9,795 bases of DNA from a bacterium (GTDB lineage: Bacteria; Blakebacterota; Blakebacteria; Blakebacterales; Blakebacteraceae): the NCBI GenBank assembly GCA_025774615.1, contig JALGVQ010000106.1:1-9795 (forward strand), in the 5' to 3' direction. Below the pieces are notes generated by a model, which had not been told where the DNA came from, made no database searches, and saw nothing but the letters and a program-made list of their open reading frames with translations. A program made the translations under genes and the position numbers. Positions 6,076-9,795 of this stretch are shown here, in pieces. How positions within the stretch are numbered: position 1 is the first letter of the stretch; every line of letters starts with the position of its first letter.

Positions 6076-6099
6076 GCTGAGGCGTGTAAGGAGAATCAC

Positions 6100-7815
6100 A
6101 TGAACTACACACGTATGGCGATGACGGTTCTTGCGGTGGCACTCGTCATTCCTGTGCACCCCGCAGCGGGCAACACCCCGACAGAGAATAGTCGGAGAGT
6201 ACTGCCTGCCGGCACTGAGGTTGAACGACAGGAACCCCGCCGGATCGAGGGTGACTACACCATCGGCCGGAATGAATTCATCGAGGAGGATCTCGTTGTC
6301 GAACGGGGAAATCTCACTGTCGATGGAGAGATCCGGGGTACCATCGTGGTTGCCTACGGGGACGCGATCATACGGGGAACGGTGGACGGCCTCGTTGTCG
6401 TGGTCCACGGTGATGTGATCGTCATGGATGAGGGGCTCGTGCAGGGTGATGCGGTCAGTATCGAGGGGAGTGTGAATCTCAGGGGTTCGGGAGTCGTGAC
6501 AGGGAGCAATGTGACCACGACCCGTGAAGGTCTGCGGCGGCAGGGAAGAAGTGTCGAGTGGGCGCGGGCCGTCCGCATGGCCAGGGTCCTGGACGATGAG
6601 ACAGTGGAAGAGGATCGCTGGGACCGGAGAGATCGGGATTTCAACCGGGACTACTACCGCAGGTACACACACCACAATTTCCTGGAAACCGGCAGATTCC
6701 CGCTCGGGGGACTCGTCTACAACCGGGTCGACGGGCTCACCCTTCAGGGAGAGATATTCAACAACAGCTTCGACTGGGACAGTGCCTCGTCGAGCTTCTA
6801 TGGCGGTGCGGGATACGGTTTCAAGAGCAAACGGCTCTATTACCGTCTCGGGTTGAACCGGTTCTGGCTTCCGCGGACCCCGATCGAGATCGGGATAGGA
6901 GCATACAAGCAGCTCGAGAGTGAAGACACCTGGTATATCAACCCGAATGAGAACGATTTTCACGCATTCTTCGTCAACTACGACTGGTATGACTATTACC
7001 AGGTCGAGGGATTCGGTGGTCTGGTCAGGTTCTCACCGCAGCGCTGGGTCTCGCTGGGAGCCAGATATGTCCAGGAAACAGAGAGTGTCGTCGAGAAAAC
7101 CACAGATTGGTCCCTGTTCGGCGGTGAACGGCACTTCCGGGAGAATGAATGGCTGACCACCTGGGATCCCGATCCGGATTTCCGCGTCTATAACCCTGCG
7201 GATGAGGGTGACCTGAAGCGATGGATCTACTTCCTTCACGTCGATGTGACCTCGTGGGGGCGGAGTCGTCCCGGAAAGGGACTCATTCTCGATGCGTCCC
7301 TCGAGCAGGTGGAGCATGAGTCGGTCGGGGGAGCATTCAACTACGAGCGGCTCCAGGCGCAATTGCAGGCCTACCTGAGCCTGAGCAGGATCGACCATAT
7401 CGCGCTTCGGGTCCGCATGGGATCGACGAAGGCCGATGATGGCTTCGAGGACATGATCCCGATCCAGCACCGCTACTATCTGGGGGGATTGGGAAGCCTG
7501 CGCGGATATGCGTTCAAGCAGTTCACCGGGAACAGATTTTTCCTGGCTACAGCCGAGTACACACTGGGAGCCGACAGCTGGACACCGTTCTTCAGTGACC
7601 TGGCGCTCACGGTCTTCTTCGATTACGGCCTGGCCTGGGACGCCGACCCGATGACTGATCTCTATGATGAACTCTACCCCGAGAAGGGGAATCGCGCCGT
7701 CGGAGTGGCTATTGCACCCTTTGGCTGGGATGGATTCAGATTCGAGGCAGCGCGACCTCTGGACGCGGATGACAAGGAATTCACCTACTACATCCGAATG
7801 GAGTTCGACTTTTGA
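6100..7815 (+). CDS. Outer-membrane Omp85-family barrel with N-terminal bactofilin-like beta-helix
   Basis: The 571-residue exported protein starts at the ATG at 6100, which has AAGGAG at 6088-6093; the same frame is open further upstream but without a ribosome-binding site. A signal peptide spans about 1-23 (MAMTVLAVALVIPVHPAA, cleavage probably A23/G24). Residues 52-140 form regular rungs of about 17 residues (71-87, 88-104, 105-123) with the alternating hydrophobic and V-G pattern of bactofilin or polymer-forming beta-helices, such as LTVDGEIRGTIVVAYGD and IIRGTVDGLVVVVHGD. A charged linker (142-180) follows. Residues 180-571 are amphipathic strands rich in aromatics, about the size of a 16-stranded Omp85 barrel. 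They include LGSLRGY (464-470), matching the conserved loop-6 RGY/RGF motif, and the terminal beta-signal YYIRMEFDF ending in Phe. No POTRA domain is visible. The role is unknown: perhaps protein or lipid export, or envelope assembly. The barrel call is firm; the beta-helix assignment is by pattern. Confidence 0.82.
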   Translation: MNYTRMAMTVLAVALVIPVHPAAGNTPTENSRRVLPAGTEVERQEPRRIEGDYTIGRNEFIEEDLVVERGNLTVDGEIRGTIVVAYGDAIIRGTVDGLVVVVHGDVIVMDEGLVQGDAVSIEGSVNLRGSGVVTGSNVTTTREGLRRQGRSVEWARAVRMARVLDDETVEEDRWDRRDRDFNRDYYRRYTHHNFLETGRFPLGGLVYNRVDGLTLQGEIFNNSFDWDSASSSFYGGAGYGFKSKRLYYRLGLNRFWLPRTPIEIGIGAYKQLESEDTWYINPNENDFHAFFVNYDWYDYYQVEGFGGLVRFSPQRWVSLGARYVQETESVVEKTTDWSLFGGERHFRENEWLTTWDPDPDFRVYNPADEGDLKRWIYFLHVDVTSWGRSRPGKGLILDASLEQVEHESVGGAFNYERLQAQLQAYLSLSRIDHIALRVRMGSTKADDGFEDMIPIQHRYYLGGLGSLRGYAFKQFTGNRFFLATAEYTLGADSWTPFFSDLALTVFFDYGLAWDADPMTDLYDELYPEKGNRAVGVAIAPFGWDGFRFEAARPLDADDKEFTYYIRMEFDF

Positions 7816-7884: not shown

Positions 7885-8754
7885 ATGAACACAACTGAGA
7901 AGCAGGCTTTGAAGACCATCGGACTCACCCTGTTCTTTCTGCTGACGGCCACTACTCTGCTGTTCGCCGGCATTCAGGAGAAGGTGATCACGAAGGTGTT
8001 TACTCCCGATCGCTCCCGTCCGCTTCTGGTCAAGGTACGTGGAGATGGGGCCGAGGTGGCTATTGCGGCGGTCGAACGGGGACGGGAAGGACGGGCCCGG
8101 TACCGGTATGACGAGGGGCACTTCTCAGGTTTCATGGAATGGGATTCCGAGCAGAACCAGCTTGAGACCATTCTGGATATGGAAGGTCTCGACTTCGATA
8201 CTGACAATGACCAGGAATCCAGCCTGGACATCATGCTGCCGACAGGTGTTCCGATCGATCTTGATTTCACACTCAAGGCCGGTTCGGTTGATCTGGATGC
8301 GGATGGACTCGAATTCAGCGGGTTGGAGATCTCCCTGTGGGCAGGGGAACTGCATGTGAATTTCCCAACGCCTTCCCGGAGCGTGATCAGACGTGTAAAT
8401 GTGGATGTCAAGATGGGAGAAACCGTAATCGAGGGGCTCGGCAACCTGGCCATCGAAATGCTGGACGTGAACGGGTTCGCAGGAGTCTGCACCCTCGATC
8501 TGACCGGTTCGGTCAAGATGCGGCGACAGGTCAGGGTCGATATGGAGATGGGGGAGATCACGGTGATCGTTCCCGAGGGAGCAACGGTGGAAGCCAGAAT
8601 AACCAAGCTTGGATTCCTGGCTGATGTCGATCTGCCCCGAAGTTGGGACCGTGATGGCCGATACGCCTTCTCACCGGGCGCGCACAGAGGTGAAGCAGAT
8701 ATCAAACTGGACATACGTGGCGGGATAGGTCAGATAACAATACTGGAGCGCTGA
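7885..8754 (+). CDS. Exported beta-rich protein, toast_rack/LiaF/DUF4097-like
   Basis: The 289-residue protein starts at the ATG at 7885, with AAGGAG at 7872-7877; an upstream in-frame GTG at 7864 lacks a ribosome-binding site. A hydrophobic segment (about 11-27, GLTLFFLLTATTLLFA) looks like a signal peptide cleaved near A28/G29. Without an obvious lipobox Cys it is more likely periplasmic or surface-exposed than a lipoprotein. The second half is a series of short strands with recurrent 'G-E-x-x-V' turns: LWAGELHVNF, VKMGETVIEG and DMEMGEITVIVPEGATVEARI. These resemble the solenoid-like repeats of DUF4097, LiaF C-terminal and toast_rack domains. Those families are linked to envelope-stress modules in other bacteria, but their biochemical role is poorly defined. 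It lies 69 bp after the Omp85-like gene with no terminator between, so it probably shares the operon. I cannot assign a specific function. Confidence 0.75.
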   Translation: MNTTEKQALKTIGLTLFFLLTATTLLFAGIQEKVITKVFTPDRSRPLLVKVRGDGAEVAIAAVERGREGRARYRYDEGHFSGFMEWDSEQNQLETILDMEGLDFDTDNDQESSLDIMLPTGVPIDLDFTLKAGSVDLDADGLEFSGLEISLWAGELHVNFPTPSRSVIRRVNVDVKMGETVIEGLGNLAIEMLDVNGFAGVCTLDLTGSVKMRRQVRVDMEMGEITVIVPEGATVEARITKLGFLADVDLPRSWDRDGRYAFSPGAHRGEADIKLDIRGGIGQITILER

Positions 8755-8787
8755 TGTAATCCTGCCTCGACGCATGTGGGGAGTCGA

Positions 8788-9468
8788 GTGGCACGAACTT
8801 ATTCATATATCCTGATCGCCTCTCTTCTGGCACCGGTAACGGTTTTGGCCCAGGAGGAGGAGACCGTGATCACCGTGGGTGAGGTATGGCTTGAAGAGAA
8901 CGGGCTCTACTTCTCGGTGGAAACGGTCAACCTGCTTGAGGAGGACGCCCGGGAGACCATCCAGGAGGGCGGCACCGCCGCTGTAGACTATACCTTCGAA
9001 CTCTATCGTCAGCGCAAAGGATGGTTCGATTCCCTGATCGATAGTGACCAGTTGCAGTTCAGGATCAGTTTCGATGCCTTCGAACGCCAGTACCGCGTTA
9101 TCAGTCCGGACATGCGTCTCAAAACCGATGAATTCTCCAGGGTCATCGCTCAGTGTACCGATCTCAACACGGTGTCGTTCGGTACCACTGATGGTTCCCG
9201 TCTCGACCCGCAGGGAACCTACTACATCGTCGTACGCGTCCGCTATCAGCCGATGTCGGTGGAAACGATCGATGATCTCCGTGACTGGGTGAGTGGATCA
9301 GGTAGTGAGGAACAGAGCCCCACCAGGTCCCGCGGTGAAGGATTCGGATCACGCATCGCGCGGGTATTGATGAGTGCCGCCGGGTTCGGTGAGGAAGATC
9401 TCCAGGGGGAGAGCAGCCGGTTCCGGCCCTCTGAACTCGAGACCCGCATACCTCCGGAGATCGACTGA
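8788..9468 (+). CDS. Exported DUF4390-like protein
   Basis: The 226-residue protein has a clear signal peptide, TYSYILIASLLAPVTVLA, cleaved before QEEE (A21/Q22). I chose the GTG at 8788 because GGGGAG at 8778-8783 precedes it. A GTG at 8776 would add four residues but has no ribosome-binding site, so the start is uncertain. The mature part (GEVWLEENGLYFSVETVNLL, FELYRQRKGWFDSL, QFRISFDAFERQYRV, YYIVVRVRYQPMS) looks like DUF4390, a family of exported all-beta proteins. In proteobacteria that family is often encoded directly before an NtrY-type sensor kinase, and here too the next gene looks like one. The last 55 or so residues are Ser/Gly/Arg-rich and probably disordered. The stop overlaps the next ATG by one base (TGATG). 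A role as a periplasmic partner of the sensor is inference. Confidence 0.72.
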   Translation: MARTYSYILIASLLAPVTVLAQEEETVITVGEVWLEENGLYFSVETVNLLEEDARETIQEGGTAAVDYTFELYRQRKGWFDSLIDSDQLQFRISFDAFERQYRVISPDMRLKTDEFSRVIAQCTDLNTVSFGTTDGSRLDPQGTYYIVVRVRYQPMSVETIDDLRDWVSGSGSEEQSPTRSRGEGFGSRIARVLMSAAGFGEEDLQGESSRFRPSELETRIPPEID

Positions 9469-9795
9469 TGGGCGGAAGCAACCTCCCCCCTGTATACACC
9501 TTTATCGCCTGGGTGGTTTTCCTCGGTTTTATCATCGCCGCCACGGTTTTCTACCGCTGGCGCCGTCCCGAGCGTTACAGCAGATACCAGCTCAAACTCA
9601 CCGTCACGTTCATCCTGTTCCTGCTCGTACCTTCCGTGCCGCTTGTGTTTGTAGCGGGTACTGCCGTCGATCAGTTACGTACCCTTGTAGTGGCCCTTCC
9701 TGTGGATGACGCCCTCGACCGGGGACTCGATGTGCTGAGAGAGGCACTCACTGACGAGGAGAGCAGACTCACCACGTGGCATGAGCAGCTCCTCG
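9468..9795 (+). CDS. N-terminus of a membrane sensor protein, probably NtrY-like histidine kinase (3' end outside window)
   Basis: The frame from the ATG at 9468 is open to the window edge (109 codons). GGAGA at 9456-9460 gives a good ribosome-binding site, and the ATG overlaps the preceding stop as TGATG. Two transmembrane segments are visible: TFIAWVVFLGFIIAATVF (about 11-28), followed by a basic stretch RWRRPERYSRYQLK, then LTVTFILFLLVPSVPLVFVAG (about 43-63). After that comes a helical, acidic region (DDALDRGLDVLREALTDEES) that would be extracytoplasmic. The LKLT...FLLVPSVPL pattern and this layout resemble the sensor part of NtrY-family kinases. HAMP, PAS and catalytic domains would lie beyond the window, so the kinase identity is inferred from the N-terminus and from the DUF4390 neighbour. 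Confidence 0.6.
   Translation, partial: MGGSNLPPVYTFIAWVVFLGFIIAATVFYRWRRPERYSRYQLKLTVTFILFLLVPSVPLVFVAGTAVDQLRTLVVALPVDDALDRGLDVLREALTDEESRLTTWHEQLL

Follow-up and report, generated by a model that had tools for sequence, protein, structure and literature searches.

The accessible portion of the 2014 census of Heinz and Lithgow describes ten Omp85/TpsB subfamilies, several of them without POTRA domains, under a barrel-based definition that does not require a POTRA domain, though at least one is typical (PMC4104836). Three of these subfamilies, WD40-Omp85, "Metallo" and "noNterm", have in common with the protein described here a barrel joined to a non-POTRA N-terminus, and the same portion of the census names neither a bactofilin or beta-helix arm nor a pairing with a toastrack protein (PMC4104836). 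The DUF5686 family (PF18939) has a related barrel region, and DUF5686-like relatives carry other N-terminal regions. A second group relevant to this work is composed of the bactofilins (PF04519; BacA, TtBac, and CcmA), which are built from beta-helices with 17-residue rungs and which, unlike the protein described here, are cytoplasmic and carry no export signal. Two additional systems invite comparison, namely two-partner secretion (FhaC/FHA), in which the gene of an Omp85 barrel likewise lies beside that of an exported protein of the beta-helix family, and the Toastrack/LiaF-LiaG proteins, whose toastrack domains were considered intracellular in a dedicated survey (PMC11237479).

Here we describe a gene, located in a window of 9,795 nucleotides (the whole stretch of DNA that was analyzed), whose product joins an exported bactofilin-fold arm to an Omp85 barrel, a new architecture within a known superfamily. 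The first-pass annotation had proposed that, in an uncharacterized protein, a bactofilin-like helix precedes an Omp85 barrel where POTRA domains would normally stand, and this proposal is upheld in that profile and fold comparisons agree and no description of such a protein was found. Specifically, the open-access literature, to which the search was directed, yielded no paper combining bactofilin with Omp85, none combining polymer-forming cytoskeletal proteins with either BamA or Omp85, and none mentioning DUF5686. Set beside the ten subfamilies described in the accessible portion of the 2014 census, the bactofilin arm represents an added architecture, and shows an exported protein making use of the bactofilin fold.

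The gene encoding the 571-residue fusion protein occupies positions 6100..7815 of the forward strand, on which all features given below are also found. Its reading frame, corroborated by homologs (58-81% identity within the same family), opens with an ATG at 6100, 6 nt downstream of a directly read Shine-Dalgarno-like AAGGAG (6088..6093), and closes with a stop codon at 7813-7815. A putative signal peptide of about residues 1-24 (MNYTRMAMTVLAVALVIPVHPAAG; 6100..6171) was read from the sequence and overlaps a modelled helix at residues 2-16; hydrophobic N-termini were read in homologs as well. The signal peptide is followed by the bactofilin-fold beta-helix (residues 46-141; 6235..6522), delimited using AlphaFold2, VIA-align, and hhalign, by a linker (residues 142-203; 6523..6708) identified by composition and low pLDDT, and by the Omp85 beta-barrel (residues 204-571; 6709..7812), assigned by PF01103 and VIA-align and ending in Phe 571. 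The linker is highly charged (D/E/K/R at 28 of 62 positions), has a pLDDT below 50 in residues 166-202, and varies in length from 22 to 207 aa among homologs. Reading frame, start, and domain order are therefore as previously described for this locus (signal peptide, beta-helix, charged linker, full-length barrel), and the LRGY loop-6 motif and terminal Phe reported at the same time are both present. A broken gene was considered and rejected for the window, the sole interrupted copy being that of the relative in G001, possibly an assembly error; an assembly chimera was likewise rejected, as the fusion is found in many genomes including G141 and G425, each a single contig of 5 Mb. Viral relatives of the fusion protein were searched for and none were found.

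Several lines of evidence identify the arm as a member of the bactofilin fold. Firstly, the isolated domain is predicted by AlphaFold2 with a pLDDT of 97, and when this model is compared by VIA-align, the three solved bactofilins rank first (6rib, Z 14.0; 6ria, 12.9; 2n3d, 11.8; next match, 9.9), with 6rib superposing at 1.3 A over 86 residues. Secondly, a profile of the rungs aligns with that of 13 canonical bactofilins with a probability of 94 and an E-value of 1.4e-7 (hhalign), and retrieves the Thermus bactofilin as its best match among PDB sequences (E 0.0072). Additionally, when the window protein and its nearest relative are left out of the family profile, residues 46-146 still obtain 75.2 bits (E 6e-22), while the 4,981 shuffled sequences scored reach at most 12.0, a result by which chance periodicity or low complexity of the arm was rejected. 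The Pfam Bactofilin model (PF04519) matches 12 of 16 homologs (best 1.8e-5), the window protein not being among them, and its cut-off is exceeded in the KSB1 relatives G047 (28.9 bits) and L169, the latter displaying three Bactofilin stretches (41.8 bits) in one open reading frame with Omp85 (46.8 bits). Because the window sequence alone compares only marginally with canonical bactofilins (11.7 bits, equalled by 3 of 4,986 shuffles), the bactofilin label rests on the family profile together with the fold.

The plain 17-residue self-identity of the arm is weak, being equalled by 383 of 20,000 shuffles, and phmmer returned nothing useful when the window protein was compared with the PDB, where matches required profiles. 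Foldseek of the short arm placed unrelated solenoids first by E-value, with 6rib having the top probability (0.69) among the rows shown, and the relationship of the arm to bactofilins was settled by VIA-align; VIA-align of the full-length model lists barrels only and is for that reason uninformative on the arm. An extra rung of 17 residues, at about residues 71-87 (6310..6360, the exact borders depending on the alignment), is found in the window protein and its family relative, the other 14 rows of alignment A2 having a 17-column gap. Taken together, the structure prediction and the profile comparison that had been proposed for this protein both favor the bactofilin-like beta-helix of the first-pass annotation, with neither a POTRA fold nor disorder at residues 46-141. 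POTRA domains at this position were rejected on the basis of the beta-helix model, the structural matches to bactofilins, and the Pfam search, in which the fusion protein has no POTRA match and none of the POTRA matches of its genome lies on the window contig. The same genome also contains, directly after an M23-peptidase-like gene, a canonical signal-less bactofilin (L072 1465-1899; G000:C11:7249-7539), and a patatin-like-POTRA-Omp85 gene of the PlpD type (L026) lies about 2.6 kb beyond it.

Placement of the C-terminal part within the Omp85 superfamily is supported by the profile check suggested earlier, PF01103 matching the window protein at 57.2 bits (E 2.6e-15; curated cut-off 24), while DUF5686 (PF18939) scores 29.4 bits, under its cut-off of 39.2. 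The full-length AlphaFold2 model, computed from 16 sequences, has a mean pLDDT of 74.5 (about 80 in the barrel) and predicts 16 strands within residues 204-567. By both Foldseek and VIA-align, residues 201-571 match BamA, Sam50, and TamA (Z 21-23; 22.9 to BamA 8xnb and 22.8 to Sam50 in 7vku), and a profile of the barrel retrieves BamA and TamA from PDB sequences. The loop-6 motif LRGY, which fits the superfamily pattern (V/L)RG(F/Y), occupies residues 467-470 (7498..7509), of which L467, R468, and G469 are invariant in a 6-row alignment, and the Omp85 hallmark residues, including those of loop 6, are kept among distant members of the barrel family.

That the nearest neighbors of the barrel in both sequence and fold are BamA, Sam50, and TamA lends some substance to the idea of an assembly factor of the BamA/TamA type, in which the arm would pass nascent outer membrane proteins to the barrel as POTRA domains do, and Sam50 is known to function without its POTRA (reviewed in PMC4104836, accessible portion). 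We nonetheless hold this to be decidedly unlikely. The genome encodes other Omp85 proteins that do have POTRA domains, so that the fusion protein is unlikely to be its BamA and other candidates for the task are available; moreover, the rungs of a beta-helix are closed and leave little strand edge exposed, and the specific link to a toastrack protein detailed below would be left unexplained. A passive role, in which a barrel devoid of insertase or transport activity merely anchors or provides a pore for a periplasmic solenoid, for example for envelope contact, accords with the free exchange of N-termini in the barrel family; conservation of the Omp85 hallmarks in distant members suggests, however, a working barrel, and renders such a role improbable.

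The first-pass annotation had also envisioned the arm as a self-assembling element that could form a scaffold or an envelope-spanning fibre. Bactofilins form polymers through a C-to-C interface occupied by Phe in T. thermophilus (F105) and Caulobacter (F130) (PMC12364344, PMC12448750) and, in H. pylori CcmA, by Leu (PMC12364344); charged replacements at this position abolish filaments (PMC12364344, PMC12448750). Of the 13 canonical bactofilins aligned, 11 have Phe here and the other 2 have Leu, while in the arm family, which differs from bactofilins in lacking the Phe as well as in being exported and barrel-fused, it is Val133 in the window protein and Ile, Val, or Leu in aligned relatives. 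The last rung of the arm family no longer has the FxGxC motif, and the C-terminal face of the arm is tethered to the membrane barrel. Since a beta-helix rises roughly 0.48 nm per turn, the approximately six turns of the arm module would extend about 3 nm, far shorter than the periplasm. With the motif lost, the C-terminal face leading into the barrel, and a module of such length, an envelope-spanning fibre is not supported. As for a periplasmic scaffold, in which bactofilin modules would polymerize and link barrels into a lattice or fibre, the close fold, the presence of up to three tandem modules in some relatives, and an interface residue that is aliphatic rather than charged, and as such may be compatible with assembly, all speak in its favor; set against the missing Phe and FxGxC, the tethered face, and the limited reach of a single module, they leave a scaffold of this kind improbable as well.

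The gene context of the fusion was missed in the first-pass annotation. Upstream of the fusion gene lie dciA (PF05258), two gyrase genes, named as such from their translations, and a Rex-type repressor gene. Downstream, after a gap of 69 nt and on the same strand, is a gene for a 289-aa toastrack (LiaF/LiaG-like) protein (7885..8754), apparently exported and a candidate partner, followed by genes for a DUF4390 protein (8776..9468; PF14334, 3e-15) and for an NtrY-type sensor kinase, of which only the 5' end is contained before the window ends (9468..9795), and which clusters with the kinase of locus L036, where an NtrY-type HisKA/HATPase_c kinase precedes a sigma-54 response regulator. The toastrack assignment derives from the family, all 8 members of which match LiaF-like_C (best 2e-9) and 3 of which match Toast_rack_N (best 7e-15); taken alone, the window protein falls below the Pfam cut-off (21.9 vs 29). 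Signal-like N-termini were read in the window protein and its relatives, so that this family would differ from described Toastrack/LiaF-LiaG proteins in being exported, and also in being paired with an outer membrane barrel rather than with LiaFSR/PspC membrane domains. As observed here, exported-looking toastracks beside an outer membrane barrel conflict with the published intracellular view (PMC11237479).

Pairing of the two genes is widespread. The toastrack gene adjoins the barrel gene, co-directionally, in the window and in G003, G001, G004, G053, and G280, and a toastrack profile (A3) finds its sole match in the genome of the window in the gene adjoining the barrel; of the 7 toastrack-bearing genomes examined, 6 have a single match to this profile, beside the barrel. 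Among KSB1 loci, 35 could be read downstream of the barrel; counted from locus listings, 25 of these have a co-directional toastrack gene near the barrel (three of the 25 having one gene in between), including 14 of 19 loci without an arm and 11 of 16 with one. In loci L049 and L137, the barrel has no arm and a separate small rung protein is encoded between barrel and toastrack, for which reason barrel, arm, and toastrack are considered a linked set. The L049 rung protein (6208-6879), stand-alone and bactofilin-like, has a lipoprotein-like N-terminus and no Pfam match. Because many arm-less barrels retain their toastrack neighbor and several KSB1 clades lack the arm, the arm would be dispensable for the pair, and the barrel and toastrack appear to be the core of the system with the arm as a variable accessory. 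The toastrack gene is absent, or apart from the barrel, in fusion-bearing G141, G425, and G136, which indicates that it is not the sole partner.

The remaining neighbors recur as well. NtrY/NtrC and DUF4390 genes are found in the family of the window and in L054, L068, and L213, with DUF4390 beside either barrel or toastrack, and NtrC also neighbors arm-less KSB1 barrels. A scan for promoters and terminators revealed no more than expected by chance; from strand and spacing, the barrel, toastrack, and neighboring genes may be presumed to form an operon. A second toastrack-type gene was observed in L143 (7182-8189; DUF4097, 1.4e-19), directly after the first. In L038 (2706-4796), two secreted DUF4097-like repeat proteins, rich in GGD/GGI, are encoded beside two bactofilin-armed barrels of a single locus.

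An Omp85 barrel with an LRGY loop 6, adjacent to the gene of an exported protein of the beta-helix family found in one copy in most of the genomes examined, resembles a TpsB/TpsA pair, and could be taken for an exporter akin to two-partner secretion that delivers the toastrack to the cell surface after recognition by the arm, as by the POTRA domains of FhaC/TpsB. TpsB proteins, however, depend on POTRA domains for recognition and none is present here; the ShlB/FhaC model (PF03865) is weakly matched, in 2 of 16 members (best E 0.0029), the toastrack is short, with no TPS secretion domain detected by Pfam, and the pair persists where the arm is missing. Surface export by this route is consequently regarded as unlikely.

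What the tools applied here return or predict is the fold and order of the domains, how they are conserved, and the pairing with the toastrack gene; from this we infer a cellular location and a tentative mode of action. The signal peptide and barrel point to the outer membrane, and the reading that we favor, while rating it at somewhat less than an even chance, is that of an Omp85 outer membrane protein that uses its bactofilin arm to dock partners in the periplasm, of which the toastrack is the most probable, in the service of envelope upkeep. Following export, the barrel would be inserted by BAM, leaving the arm, zero to three modules long, to stand in the periplasm as a rigid solenoid that may capture a partner via its sheet faces or free N-terminal end. 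This toastrack protein, exported and encoded alongside, also belongs to a beta-helix family, and might thereby be retained at the outer membrane or built into it. It would then form part of a module for envelope maintenance, possibly regulated in several lineages by an NtrY/NtrC-type two-component system. The intracellular placement of toastracks in the published survey (PMC11237479) counts against docking, despite the signal-like N-termini observed here. A more specific version, in which the arm recognizes the toastrack solenoid-to-solenoid and a new kind of two-part outer membrane system then assembles or exports it, is doubtful. Were this version to prove correct, a cytoskeletal fold would serve as a receptor in the periplasm, taking over from POTRA domains. 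The specific partner and possible regulator now indicated make testable both what can replace a POTRA domain and what exported toastrack proteins do.

Several little-known bacterial phyla have conserved this design, and its gene is often accompanied by that of this one specific exported protein. A domain-architecture search, as the first-pass annotation had advised, recovered the same fusion in the family of the window, in 43 of 82 KSB1 genomes (arm-through-barrel matches counted from the match list), and in other lineages. Relatives of the barrel are present in 77 of the 82 KSB1 genomes, and strong relatives were found in 44 of 386 broadly sampled genomes, several bearing the arm. N-termini in the barrel family are correspondingly diverse, and include none at all, one to three bactofilin modules, CBM48 repeats, coiled coils, carboxypeptidase-regulatory/DUF5686-like regions, and POTRA-like regions; variation in module number was, like the toastrack and NtrY/NtrC-DUF4390 neighbors, absent from the earlier description. 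In a barrel tree of 68 rows, arm-bearing and arm-less relatives fall within one supported set of 56 rows, which suggests that the arm was lost or gained several times, the root being uncertain. One early origin of the arm followed by several losses would fit this tree, a tentative reading given the uncertainty of the root and of the long branches. Two tree labels are to be read with care: the "arm-less" label of L037 stems solely from an interruption of its gene, and what is counted as "two modules" in the window is one module plus the extra rung.

Individual members of the barrel family illustrate the range of these arrangements. Three tandem bactofilin modules precede the barrel in the KSB1 loci L169 (5078-7366), L170 (5064-7298), and L171 (4382-6616). 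In L054 (2726-5503) and L068 (4971-7520), two bactofilin modules are accompanied, N-terminal of the barrel, by CBM48/AMPK-type glycogen-binding repeats, of which L054 has three. Lastly, the rung module also stands in a different setting in L029 (880-2343; G003:C102), L033, and L018, whose proteins combine a coiled-coil-like N-terminus with a bactofilin-like module followed by hydrophobic transmembrane-like segments.
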